A DNA stretch of 64,000 bases from Deltaproteobacteria bacterium (GTDB taxonomy: Bacteria; Desulfobacterota; Binatia; HRBIN30; JACQVA1): NCBI GenBank assembly GCA_016178705.1, contig JACOST010000006.1:62001-126000 (forward strand), written 5' to 3'. The translations under genes and the position numbers were made by a program. The notes under the pieces are model-generated. The model searched no databases and was not told where the DNA came from. It worked only from the letters and a program-made list of their open reading frames with translations. How positions within the stretch are numbered: position 1 is the stretch's first letter; every line of letters starts with the position of its first letter. Below, piece after piece: positions 37,965 to 42,763 of this stretch.

Positions 37965-39077
37965 ATGCTCACGCGGAAAACACATCGAACAGTTGGCTTG
38001 GCGATAGCGATCGTCGCCGCGTGCGCGGCGCAAGCCGTTGCGCTAATGGACCAGCAGTTCTTTGTTTCGGACAACAACAAGCTCTACTACGTCGTCAAGA
38101 TCGATGCCGGTTCGGGCATCGGCGCGCAGGTCACCAGCATCATGTTGACCACCGGCTCGGCCAATTCGCTCAACGAGACCGTCAGTCTCACCGATCCGGT
38201 GCTCACTTCGGTTTCGCTGGCATCGAGCGGCGTCACGTTGCCCGACGGGATGTTGAGCAAGATCAAACGCACGCAGATTCTGACCGGTTTCTCGTCGAAT
38301 GACGTCGCGCTCTCGAATTTCGACAGCTCGGCTAACAGCGGCAACGGCATCCTGACGCTGCCCGACGGTGTTCGCTCCGTGACTTTCGACGGATCCTCGG
38401 GCGAACCGTTGCAGGCGATCACGACATCGAGCGGGTCCGGAGCAACCTTCGTCCCGGCTGCAGCCAAGGTCACCGTGAGCCGCCGCCTCGGCGGGACGAC
38501 GTCGATCGGTGTGCAGGCGATCGTGTTCCCGAATCCGGTGGGCTCGCCGACGACTTCCGCAGGAGCCACGTGTGGCGGGGGCTCGTGCGCTGCCGGCATT
38601 CCGTGCGACTCGGCGAACAATGGCGGTGCCGACACTGGTGCGTGCGGCGCATGTAGCGGAACCTGTTCGAACGCCGGCGGCGAGGTGCTGACACAGAATG
38701 TGACCCTGGACGATACGAAGAACACGCGTGTCGGCAACGACGGCGGCGGAGCGACTCAAGCCAGCGCCGTCGACGGCTTCCTACTGCACAACACCTCCGA
38801 CATCATCGTGTTTGTCGTCGAGGGCATGCAGGCGTTCGGTCTCAGCGCCTCCGGGTTCTCGGTGACGGGCACCTGCGTCGGTGGGACCAACGATACACAC
38901 GCGTGCTCGGGCGGTGATTGCGACGGCGGCACGTGCACGGCGGGTCTCAGCGCCCGCACGGTGCTTGACACCACCGGCGACGCCGACACCGGATTCTTCA
39001 ACAATCAACCGGCGCCACAGCCGACGCCGACGTGCCCCGCGGTGACCGGTATCTTGCGGAGCCTGCCTCGACGATGA
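37965..39077 (+). CDS. Secreted protein of unknown function with cysteine-rich segments
   Basis: A 370-residue protein with a signal peptide (MLTRKTHRTVGLAIAIVAAC, cleaved around residue 26). The first 190 residues are Ser/Thr/Gly-rich beta-type sequence; two compact Cys clusters follow (CGGGSCAAGIPC through CGACSGTC, and CVGGTNDTHACSGGDCDGGTC). It ends GILRSLPRR, resembling the GIVNSLLRHQR ends of two small proteins in this cluster. Its stop overlaps the next start (ATGA). It is not similar to any family I know; an extracellular role is inferred. Confidence 0.7.
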   Translation: MLTRKTHRTVGLAIAIVAACAAQAVALMDQQFFVSDNNKLYYVVKIDAGSGIGAQVTSIMLTTGSANSLNETVSLTDPVLTSVSLASSGVTLPDGMLSKIKRTQILTGFSSNDVALSNFDSSANSGNGILTLPDGVRSVTFDGSSGEPLQAITTSSGSGATFVPAAAKVTVSRRLGGTTSIGVQAIVFPNPVGSPTTSAGATCGGGSCAAGIPCDSANNGGADTGACGACSGTCSNAGGEVLTQNVTLDDTKNTRVGNDGGGATQASAVDGFLLHNTSDIIVFVVEGMQAFGLSASGFSVTGTCVGGTNDTHACSGGDCDGGTCTAGLSARTVLDTTGDADTGFFNNQPAPQPTPTCPAVTGILRSLPRR

Positions 39078-40207
39078 GCGACCAGCGTCGACATGCACGA
39101 TGGTTCGCACCCACGCTGGTGCTGATGGCACTGCTCGGTGTCGCTTCGGCAACTCGCGCCGATATCACCTCCGACCAGCCGGCCGCAATTCTCGTCTTTC
39201 CAATGATCGCAGTGTCGGGGGACGATTGTCTCGACACATTGATTCAGGTGAGCAACACCTCGAACCAGCCGGTGAACGTGCGCTGCTTCTATGTCAACGC
39301 CAACAGTCATTGCACGAACAGCGGCCGCGTCTGCTCCAGCGGTGCCGAATGCGGTGGGGGCTTGTGCTTGCCGGACTGGAACGAGACGGATTTCCGCATT
39401 CGCATTACCCCGCGGCAACCACTCGCATGGGTGGCCTCGAAAGGGCTGCGGCGCTGCGCTCCGAACGAAATCCCCAGCGATATCTGTATCCCACTCGATG
39501 GCCGCATCCGCCGCGGCCCGGGCGGGCAGAGCAACGTGCCGACTCACGTACCGCCGGTGGCGGAAGACCCATTCGTCGGCGAGCTCAAGTGCATCGCCGT
39601 TGATGATGAAGACCATCCGGTCGAGCGCAACGTGCTGGTCGGTTCGACGACGACCGAGGAAGTCTGTCAGCGTGGATGCCTCGACGTGACCCGGCACAAT
39701 GCGATCGGCATCCTAGCGATCCCCGGCGCCAACAACGGTGACAATCGCTTGGTCCTTGGTGAGGAGTACAACGCGTGCCCCAACACGCTCATCCTCAACC
39801 ACTTCTTCGACGGCGCGGTGGACCCTGTTACCAACGACCCCATCGAGGGTTTGCTCGCGCTGGTACCGTGCAGCGAGGACTTCGTGTTGCAAGACCAGAA
39901 TCTAGCCAAAGTCATCGCGCAATTCTTAGTGTTCAACGAGTTCGAGCAGCGATTCTCCACCAGCACCACAGTGCAGTGCTTCTTGTCGCTGCCGTTGTCC
40001 AGCATCGACACCACGCAGCCGAATCGGTCGATCTTCAGTGTCGGCGTCTCCGGCACATTGGTCGGACAGACCCGCATCCATGGCGTCGGTGCTGCAGGTC
40101 ACGGACTGCTTGGCGTCTTCTTTGACTCGCACGGCAATCGCAGCACCGCGGCGAATCTGCATTTCCAAGGCGTGAGCGATCACGTCGACATCATCAATCT
40201 TCCGTAG
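39074..40207 (+). CDS. Secreted cysteine-containing protein, large paralogue 1
   Basis: A 377-residue protein with a signal peptide (hydrophobic stretch APTLVLMALLGVASATRA). The mature part begins DITSDQPAAILVFPMI. A knottin-like segment follows: CFYVNANSHCTNSGRVC, then CGGGLCLPDWNETDF. Further motifs: RRGPGGQSNV, FSTSTTVQCF and GQTRIHGVGAAGHGLLG. It is clearly paralogous over its full length to the protein at 40643. The function is unknown. The start at 39074 overlaps the previous stop. Confidence 0.75.
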   Translation: MSDQRRHARWFAPTLVLMALLGVASATRADITSDQPAAILVFPMIAVSGDDCLDTLIQVSNTSNQPVNVRCFYVNANSHCTNSGRVCSSGAECGGGLCLPDWNETDFRIRITPRQPLAWVASKGLRRCAPNEIPSDICIPLDGRIRRGPGGQSNVPTHVPPVAEDPFVGELKCIAVDDEDHPVERNVLVGSTTTEEVCQRGCLDVTRHNAIGILAIPGANNGDNRLVLGEEYNACPNTLILNHFFDGAVDPVTNDPIEGLLALVPCSEDFVLQDQNLAKVIAQFLVFNEFEQRFSTSTTVQCFLSLPLSSIDTTQPNRSIFSVGVSGTLVGQTRIHGVGAAGHGLLGVFFDSHGNRSTAANLHFQGVSDHVDIINLP

Positions 40208-40233
40208 GCCCGCGGGCTGGGCAGTGTTTCGGC

Positions 40234-40262
40234 TTGACTTCCGGCGCTGGCCGTCGAAAATA
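40234..40262 (+). promoter_or_regulatory. Promoter upstream of small secreted protein 1
   Basis: TTGACT (40234-40239), 17-base spacer, AAAATA (40257-40262). The same arrangement and a similar leader (GCGCTGAAGGAGG-type) precede the small paralogue at 42449. Confidence 0.5.
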
Positions 40263-40286
40263 GCCGACGCTGAAGGAGGGGGGCGA

Positions 40287-40607
40287 ATGGTGGCCATCAA
40301 TCGAGTGCGGATGTCTGGTCTTGTAGGGCTGATCGCAGTGGGGCTGGTAACGTTAGCCTCGCCCGCGGCCATTGGCGCCTTCACGTGTGACATAGTGAAC
40401 AACTTCTCGACCGGTGGTGCCGCCGACATTTGCGGCGGTAGCTGTCCTGAGGGACAGACGTGCAAGCTCGCCGAGTTGCCCTGCGCCGGAGGTCTCTCAG
40501 GCACCGATGGCGCGGCCAGCGGCCAATGCAGCGCGGACGTGACCTGCGAATGCGTCGACGATCTGGCCCCCGGCATCGTCAATAGCCTGCTCAGACACCA
40601 ACGGTGA
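40287..40607 (+). CDS. Small secreted cysteine-rich protein 1
   Basis: A 106-residue protein starting MVAINRVRMSG behind GAAGGAGGGGGG. The signal peptide ends near residue 34, and the mature part begins FTCDIVNNFS. It has eight to nine Cys in the pattern FTC, CGGSC, GQTC, LPC, CSADVTCEC, and ends APGIVNSLLRHQR. It aligns over its whole length with the protein at 42449; the last 12 residues are identical. Disulfide-bonded export product by inference; no known family. The large paralogue 2 starts 35 bases downstream, so they are likely cotranscribed. Confidence 0.75.
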   Translation: MVAINRVRMSGLVGLIAVGLVTLASPAAIGAFTCDIVNNFSTGGAADICGGSCPEGQTCKLAELPCAGGLSGTDGAASGQCSADVTCECVDDLAPGIVNSLLRHQR

Positions 40608-40642
40608 GTGCGGTGATGGTACGGGTACGGAGGAGGGGAACG

Positions 40643-41737
40643 ATGACGTTGCGCCGAGCCTTATTGATGATCATCTGCGTGTTGGCGGCCCCCGCGGCCA
40701 AGGCGCAGATCGCGTCCGATCAGCCCGCGGCCTTGGTGGTGTATCCGCTGATCTTCGTGGACGACCAGACTCCCACCGACACTCTCATTCAGTTGAGCAA
40801 CACCTCGAAAGACCCGGTGTCGGCGCGTTGCTTCTACGTCAACGCCAACGGTCACTGTTCGAACAGTGGTGACGCGTGCTCCAGCGGCGCCGAGTGCCGC
40901 GGTGGGTTGTGCCTGCCGGGGTGGAACGAGACCGACTTCCGCGTGCAGCTCACCGCACGCCAGCCGATCGCATGGGTCGCCTCCGATGGCTTGGTCGTGT
41001 GCCAGCCGGATCAGATGTCCGACGATGACTGTGCTCCGCTCGATGGTCGCACCCGGCGCGGCCCTGGCGGCCAGAGCAACGTCGGCACGCGTATCCCGCC
41101 GGTGAGTGAGATTCCCTTTGTCGGCGAACTGCGCTGCGTCGTGGTCGACGATCAGGACCGTCCGAGCGACCGCAACGTCTTGGTCGGTTCCGCCACCACG
41201 GTTCAGCCCGGTCGAAATCTGCTCGACGTGACCCGTGACAATGCCGTGGGCATTCCCGCGGTGACGGGAGCCAACAACGGCGACAACACCCTACGGTTGG
41301 GCGAGGAGTATGCGGCCTGTCCCAACACGCTGATCGTCAACCACCTCTTCGATGGCGCGATGATCGAGGGGAACCCGGTGCAGAGCGTGATCGTGTTGAC
41401 CCCCTGCGCTGCCGACTACAACCTGCAGGTGCCGGCCAGCATCATTGCGCAGATGCTGGTGTTCAACGAATTCGAGCAACGCTTCTCGACCAGCACCACC
41501 GTGCAGTGCTTCGCGATGCGCGCGCTGTCGCGCCTCGACACGACGCAACCCGAACGGTCCATCTTCAACGTCGGCATCGCCGGAACGATGAGCGGGCAGA
41601 CCCGCATTCACGGCATCGCCGCCGGGGGTCACGGATTGCTGGGCACTTTGTACGAAGCGTATCCCGAAGCGAGCGCGGCGGTGAACGTCCATTACCAGGG
41701 CATCAGCGACCGCGTCGATGTCATCCAGCTCCCCTGA
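40643..41737 (+). CDS. Secreted cysteine-containing protein, large paralogue 2
   Basis: A 364-residue protein with signal peptide MTLRRALLMIICVLAAPAAK. Mature sequence IASDQPAALVVYPLIFVDDQ; the Cys segment is CFYVNANGHCSNSGDAC then CRGGLCLPGWNETDF; C-terminal motifs FSTSTTVQCF, GQTRIHGIAAGGHGLLG and a final DRVDVIQLP. It is parallel in every block to the protein at 39074, so the [large-small] gene pair looks duplicated. The start ATG lies after GGAGGGG. Function unknown. Confidence 0.75.
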   Translation: MTLRRALLMIICVLAAPAAKAQIASDQPAALVVYPLIFVDDQTPTDTLIQLSNTSKDPVSARCFYVNANGHCSNSGDACSSGAECRGGLCLPGWNETDFRVQLTARQPIAWVASDGLVVCQPDQMSDDDCAPLDGRTRRGPGGQSNVGTRIPPVSEIPFVGELRCVVVDDQDRPSDRNVLVGSATTVQPGRNLLDVTRDNAVGIPAVTGANNGDNTLRLGEEYAACPNTLIVNHLFDGAMIEGNPVQSVIVLTPCAADYNLQVPASIIAQMLVFNEFEQRFSTSTTVQCFAMRALSRLDTTQPERSIFNVGIAGTMSGQTRIHGIAAGGHGLLGTLYEAYPEASAAVNVHYQGISDRVDVIQLP

Positions 41738-41832
41738 ACTGGGGCGTTGACCCGGTGTCGGGCGCGGATCAGACTATGCGCGTGTGAGTGGTGGTGAGCG
41801 GGCGACTGTAATCGTCCGGAAAGGAGTCCGTC

Positions 41833-42360
41833 ATGGCCTTGGTCAGTGGCGAAACTCTCGGCGGTCGCTCTCAAGGCGAGACCGTTGCAACCTCCACCGT
41901 CGATCAACAAGGCATTGTCGCCGGCTTGCTCGGCGCCGCCACCATCGCCCTGTGGTTTCTCCTGCTCGATAGCCTCAGCGGCCGGCCGCTGTACACGCCG
42001 ACCGTGCTCGGCATCTGGGTGTTCCGCCACGGTGCAGGTCTCACCTCCCCCGACACGCTTGCCCCGTCCTTCGAGATGGCGATGTTGTTCACCTGGATTC
42101 ACGCGCTGGTATTTCTCGGTATCGGCTTTGCGGTTTCTCGGCTGTTGCGGGTCGCTGAACTTCACCCCAATCTTGGCTTCGGCATTCTCCTCCTCTTCGT
42201 CGTGTTCGAGTCCGGCTTCGTGGTGCTGACGATGACGGTCGCGCAAGATGTCGTGAGCGCGCTGGCGTGGCCCGCCGTGCTGTTCGGCAACCTCCTCGCC
42301 GCGGCGGCGATGGGCGCGTACTTCTGGCGCCATCATCCGAATCTGCGCATCGAGCCGTGA
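41833..42360 (+). CDS. Four-helix membrane protein of unknown function
   Basis: A 175-residue protein with a polar N-terminus (about 25 residues) and four membrane helices (about 28-46, 83-105, 114-135 and 143-162). GIVAGLLGAATIALWFLLLD opens the first helix. No catalytic motif or family recognised. It follows AAAGGAG and lies between the large paralogue 2 and the small paralogue 2 on the same strand, so it may belong to the same unit. Confidence 0.65.
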   Translation: MALVSGETLGGRSQGETVATSTVDQQGIVAGLLGAATIALWFLLLDSLSGRPLYTPTVLGIWVFRHGAGLTSPDTLAPSFEMAMLFTWIHALVFLGIGFAVSRLLRVAELHPNLGFGILLLFVVFESGFVVLTMTVAQDVVSALAWPAVLFGNLLAAAAMGAYFWRHHPNLRIEP

Positions 42361-42396
42361 GCATCATACGATCGGTCTCGAGCTCGCAGTCTCGCC

Positions 42397-42425
42397 TTGA
42401 CATGCGGCGCCGGTTGTTCGAACGT
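42397..42425 (+). promoter_or_regulatory. Promoter upstream of small secreted protein 2
   Basis: TTGACA (42397-42402), 17-base spacer, GAACGT (42420-42425). Layout matches the promoter at 40234. The -10 is weak. Confidence 0.4.
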
Positions 42426-42448
42426 ATCGGCGCTGAAGGAGGAGGCGA

Positions 42449-42763
42449 ATGGTGGCCGTCAACAACGTGCGAATCGTACTGGTAGCCGGGGCACTGATTC
42501 TCGCCGCGTTGCTGGCGAGCACCCCGCGCAGCGTCGCGCAGCAGTTCACGTGTGATATCGACGAGCTCTCGACCAACGGTCCGGCGACGCAATGCAGCGG
42601 CACCTGTCCTATCGGCCAAACGTGCCAGTCCGTCGAGTCGCCGTGTCCTCTCCTTGAATCGGGGACCGCGGGCGCGGCCGGCTGCGCTGCGGAAATCCGG
42701 TTCACCTGTGCGTGCCTCGTCGATCCCGGCATCGTCAACAGTCTGCTCCGGCACCAACGTTGA
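42449..42763 (+). CDS. Small secreted cysteine-rich protein 2
   Basis: A 104-residue protein, MVAVNNVRIVLVAGALILAA signal peptide, mature QFTCDIDELSTNG. The Cys pattern FTC, CSGTC, GQTC, SPC, GC, FTCAC mirrors small protein 1, and it ends DPGIVNSLLRHQR. The conserved 12-residue C-terminal end in two otherwise about half-identical proteins suggests that the end itself is functional (recognition, sorting or binding). It follows GAAGGAGGAG. Confidence 0.75.
   Translation: MVAVNNVRIVLVAGALILAALLASTPRSVAQQFTCDIDELSTNGPATQCSGTCPIGQTCQSVESPCPLLESGTAGAAGCAAEIRFTCACLVDPGIVNSLLRHQR

Follow-up and report, generated by a model that had tools for sequence, protein, structure and literature searches.

Why would two cysteine-rich proteins that have drifted apart over most of their length still end in the same 11 residues, and what might such an end do? 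The question is raised by a run of genes in the window analysed here, the whole stretch being 64,000 nucleotides of a contig filed as Deltaproteobacteria bacterium (class Binatia, HRBIN30), from a lineage described in PMC8262859 as yet uncultured. The genes and sites concerned are:

37965..39077, + strand: protein X, 370 aa, 12 Cys, probably exported, C-terminal end TPTCPAVTGILRSLPRR
39074..40207, + strand: large protein 1, 377 aa, 14 Cys, probably exported
40234..40261, + strand: sigma-70-like site TTGACT-16-GAAAAT upstream of small protein 1 (consensus match, 9/12)
40287..40607, + strand: small Cys-rich protein 1, 106 aa, 8 Cys, probably exported
40572..40604, + strand: conserved tail GIVNSLLRHQR of small protein 1
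40643..41737, + strand: large protein 2, 364 aa, 12 Cys, probably exported, two predicted beta-sandwich domains
41833..42360, + strand: membrane protein (by eye), 175 aa, between large 2 and small 2
42449..42763, + strand: small Cys-rich protein 2, 104 aa, 8 Cys, probably exported
42728..42760, + strand: conserved tail GIVNSLLRHQR of small protein 2

The open reading frames for X, the two large and the two small proteins were all confirmed on the + strand, in the order X–large–small–large–membrane gene–small, and these five genes lie downstream of what appear by eye to be the last nuo genes. The repeated arrangement that the first-pass annotation had described at 39074-42763 holds, with two large paralogues (62% identical) alternating with two small ones; the stop codon of X overlaps the start of large 1 (ATGA). 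Signal-peptide-like starts without a lipobox Cys are present on X and on the large and small proteins, these starts, like the ribosome sites, having been judged by eye. Two sigma-70-like sites were found in the region, counted by consensus match only, where shuffled sequences gave 0.5 on average, and TTGACA also precedes small 2 and the small gene of a relative, G001 (by eye). The membrane gene gave no Pfam family above cut-off and is probably unrelated to the large and small genes that flank it. No known Pfam or NCBIfam family was found above cut-offs for the proteins of the locus, and no description of the large, small or X proteins was found in the portions available to us of the literature on Binatota and HRBIN30, including PMC8262859.

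The small proteins had been singled out as only moderately alike and yet identical at their ends, and alignment agrees: they are 49% identical overall; counted by position, 52/101 aligned residues match, whereas the final 13 aligned residues are all identical, an end reached in 15 of 200,000 shuffles of identical and different columns when columns are treated as independent. At the DNA level, 4 of the 11 tail codons differ synonymously between small 1 and small 2, as do the codons of 11 of the 33 identical body residues. Judged from these codons, the tail DNA appears to have diverged about as much as the rest of the small gene while the peptide was held at the protein level; the synonymous tail differences therefore argue that selection on the peptide, and not recent copying, kept the tail. 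With shared Cys excluded, identity between small 1 and small 2 is 11/11 in the tail versus 24/54 in the mature body (Fisher one-sided p=0.0005).

A single small orthologue was found in G001, the one relative of the same family among the genomes compared, which belongs to a second genus. It has 93 residues and 6 Cys and ends in GITHTLADHQR, a tail that retains G, I, L, H, Q and R (6/11 residues). In the two comparisons that involve this protein the tail again exceeds the body, at 6/11 versus 9/45 and 6/11 versus 11/47 (Fisher one-sided 0.03 and 0.05), although all three tail-versus-body comparisons share sequences and hence are not independent, the evidence comprising three genes in two genomes. 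The preferential conservation of the tail that had been looked for in orthologues is thus seen in this one, where the tail is kept better than the rest of the mature protein. When the G001 protein is aligned with small 1, no counterparts of Cys 66 and Cys 81 are present, and because both are absent, it is suggested that these two residues of small 1 pair with each other.

The same relative provides information on gene pairing. Its small gene lies 33 bases upstream of a large open reading frame, compared with 35 bases between small and large genes in the window, and the spacing of X and its large gene is either the ATGA overlap or 7 bases. The two G001 units are on separate contigs, X plus large 1 on C126 (18.6 kb) and small plus large 2 on C222 (32.1 kb), with both pairs at least 7.7 kb from the contig ends. 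The place orthologous to large 1 is G001:C126:8735-9823, adjoining the X orthologue (L067:9885-10901), which ends TPTCVGVTGVLRSLPRR. Both pairs stay together in G001 even though the neighbouring genes, examined by eye, differ between the genomes, and nothing else observed speaks as strongly for a joint role of partner and large protein as this retention of pairs amid different neighbours. Two facts count against it: small 2 is not directly followed by a large gene, and the other large open reading frames of this genome, about 19 in number, have no small gene of such kind, since the genome contains only two.

The small tail has a narrow distribution. A profile of it, searched against 15 genomes of the order, found three carriers, two in this genome (G000) and one in G001, with the next best match (E 0.28) in the noise, so that in the 13 other genomes no protein carried the tail above noise. 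The suggestion that it might be a general sorting or anchoring tag fared poorly on this count, the tail standing above noise only on three small-family members among the 15 genomes. Profiles of the entire small proteins likewise matched these three along their full length and gave only partial matches in the order's 13 other genomes, the best (E 1.5e-5, in G009) lying over the Cys module; among 118 genomes of the class, strong matches were confined to G000 and G001, with partial matches in G009, G020, G063 and G064 (E 1.5e-5 to 6e-4). A public genome collection yielded 15 pattern matches, 0 of them confirmed, in a search from which records of this genome or very near ones were possibly left out, and the small-protein profile gave three weak rows against PDB sequences (best E 0.14). 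The small family is thus known from three members in two genomes. As read from these sequences, the tail is a genuine C-terminal element under selection, and the tiny family that carries it is lineage-specific and paired with an unnamed, expanded one.

The explanation that we put first, while holding it tentatively, is that the locus represents a conserved two-gene unit of a tailed partner and a large exported protein, in which the tail serves as a partner-specific docking or folding helix. Each unit would encode an exported pair, the partner (a small Cys-rich protein or X) being followed by a large two-domain beta-sandwich protein. The small partner would fold as a disulfide-held module and its tail would form a short amphipathic helix, with I, V, L and L on one face and the invariant H-Q-R at the free end; this tail would either dock on the large partner or complete the small fold in the way that the partner needs. 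That the tail stands above noise on the small family only fits a partner-specific piece, and the helix modelled with low confidence at the end of small 1 agrees with this reading too.

It is possible, if somewhat less probable, that the tail just forms the final element of the small fold, a helix packed against the disulfide module that serves neither a partner nor sorting. Its restriction to the small family, close behind the last C-x-C, would suit this explanation, as would the AlphaFold2 model of small 1, which shows a helix at residues 95-104, albeit with low confidence (mean pLDDT 52, two sequences). However, the most constant run of the tail is the polar H-Q-R at the free end, and similar modules may need no tail. 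Short C-x-G-x-C-x-x-G-x-x-C...C-x-C modules in five Binatia open reading frames (L103, L105, L113, L117 and L202) share the Cys spacing and conserved glycines of the small proteins, but the likeness is short and, unlike the small proteins, these modules lie within longer open reading frames and lack the tail; those of L103 and L105 stop no more than 5 residues past the C-x-C. At E 0.01 neither small 1 nor small 2 was retrieved by a profile of the Cys module, which in 10 genomes found only its own source sequences. The L103 and L105 open reading frames (422 and 328 residues) end in their small-protein-like module.

We consider it unlikely that the tail directs sorting or anchoring through recognition by a protease, a sortase or an outer-membrane exporter. 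Its extreme C-terminal position, basic end and protein-level conservation would be expected of such a signal, and short conserved basic ends on probably exported proteins recall the tripartite sorting signals PEP-CTERM/exosortase, MYXO-CTERM/myxosortase and GlyGly-CTERM/rhombosortase (sorting-signal papers: PMC3237569, PMC1569441 and PMC11980579). Those signals, however, contain a transmembrane helix and have many carriers per genome, whereas the small tail belongs to one tiny family and no membrane helix was found in it, stretches free of D, E, K and R within the final 30 residues reaching at most 10, 8 and 8 in the three proteins. The genome does contain three PF09721 exosortase-like matches over cut-off, on contigs other than those of the locus genes (the control matched in 1/14 genomes), but proteins other than these, ones that have an ordinary tripartite end, are the likelier substrates of their products; beside the tail carriers, neighbours examined by eye showed no linked protease or sortase gene. 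Of the proposal that the tail is a sorting, anchoring or assembly signal, the selection on it at the protein level has stood, while a shared sorting or anchoring tag is opposed by the missing helix and the few carriers. The tail may still act in assembly or docking, and a docking or folding role is likelier than a sorting one; the finding cannot be upheld as a new sorting system.

Protein X bears on the same issue, since its end at 37965 had been grouped with that of the small proteins and since it has a short conserved basic tail where some of its paralogues have a tripartite sorting end, a point in favour of a sorting signal. In this genome GILRSLPR of X and GIVNSLLR of the small proteins agree at 5/8 positions, but in G001 GVLRSLPR and GITHTLAD agree at 2/8 (by eye), and a common tail was rejected on this fading likeness. 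The X tail is instead conserved separately: X and its G001 orthologue are identical at 16 of the last 22 residues, 10 of these 16 with different codons, and an X-tail profile placed only these two proteins above noise in the 15 genomes of the order, the next best match (E 0.005) covering only positions 4-15 of 22. Three small-tail and two X-tail carriers are thus all that rise above noise in 15 genomes, which also argues against a sorting tag. X and its orthologue have their short tail, in which no membrane helix of the known C-terminal sorting signals was found, in place of the helix of five relatives (two here, two in G001 and one in G002), whose ends run from a Pro-Thr stalk through PIPVVPSPTAPAGL-like residues and a hydrophobic helix to basic residues. 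L069:4774-8112 (G000:C28), L055 and L053 are X relatives with such a stalk, motif, helix and basic end; L057, L059 and L060 have other C-terminal ends. The stalked end is a candidate exosortase-type sorting end by its composition. Its profile found matches in 15/15 genomes of the order at E 0.01, counting matches anywhere in a protein, and in three carriers that were scanned no NCBIfam model was found above cut-off.

These ends allow a further idea, which we consider improbable, that the tails are partner-recognition peptides: the small protein and X, though unrelated, would each have acquired a short conserved basic C-terminus that replaces any membrane anchor and binds it, at the cell surface, to a large beta-sandwich partner of its own; X would then be a former exosortase substrate whose anchor was traded for a docking tail.

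Recent duplication or gene conversion, or bases that serve the start of the next gene, would scarcely account for the identical ends: the small genes are alike at the ribosome site and upstream of it if gaps are allowed (13/50 ungapped) and the ATGA overlap couples X to the gene that follows, but the synonymous differences in the small tails, on which recent gene conversion was rejected, the different codons of the X tail in G001 and the lack of a large gene after small 2 all oppose it.

The conserved small tailed protein offers a simple, testable handle on the ligand of the large family and on the way its members are held in place. This genome has 24 stretches matching the large family, which after merging amount to about 21 open reading frames, many of them in tandem, spread over seven contigs. 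Searched with large 2 at E 0.001, all 15 genomes of the order (the present one counted) contained the family, against 0/83 other genomes of the class; it also occurs in public records under the titles Bacterium HR30 (HRbin30), Candidatus Binatia bacterium and Deltaproteobacteria bacterium, among others. When 51 members were scanned with Pfam, 15 families were matched, none of them in more than two members (best E 0.0022, EB module), and a PDB sequence search with the large proteins gave no match.

An AlphaFold2 model of large 2 (51 sequences, mean pLDDT 91) predicts two beta-sandwich domains, at about 25-190 and 224-355. For domain 2 (224-355), VIA-align placed TM1070 (1nc7_B) first (Z 11.2, rmsd 3.4, 109 residues; next row Z 6.1), while the rows listed for domain 1 held no TM1070 match. 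Foldseek against the PDB gave no match for large 2 that reached E 0.001, with TM1070 third (E 0.0066, probability 1.00) behind neuropilin b1b2 and arrestin, both of lower probability. TM1070 represents the ASRAH superfamily (Anabaena sensory rhodopsin transducer, TM1070/PDB 1nc7; DUF1362), a beta-sandwich like that predicted for domain 2 when the folds are compared as wholes. In the available portions of PMC2739507, this superfamily is predicted to bind sugars, two-domain secreted versions are described, newly found members are said to escape the DUF1362 model also, and its marks are given as a near-absolute Asn that ends strand 2 with a tight turn and a well-conserved Trp that starts strand 1. 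Measured against these marks, domain 1 of large 2 has N53 as the last residue of predicted strand 45-53 and within the 90% list of the 51 sequences, and domain 2 has N275 at the end of strand 266-275, a majority residue outside that list; the strand-1 Trp is missing, large 2 (P0004) having Trp only at 94 and 111. The large family further differs from ASRAH in its several invariant Cys, its confinement to one order among the genomes tested and the lack of Pfam or PDB sequence matches, Pfam searches at E 1 having yielded no ASRT model. Based on the model, we regard the large family as ASRAH-like in fold and not a proven member. The large proteins possibly bind glycan, by analogy, because the sugar binding predicted for the ASRAH superfamily is carried over by fold only. 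They form an unnamed, order-wide and much expanded family whose fold is confidently predicted.

Two side observations concern the large family. A 4.2 kb contig filed as Patescibacteria (L134) carries large-family open reading frames with ends nearly those of a Candidatus Binatia MAG (L135), and may be misbinned or misfiled. The large-family open reading frame L077:7028-9220, of 731 aa, has an end, DRNGDGVVDLGEALRSL, that resembles an EF-hand or dockerin-type calcium loop.
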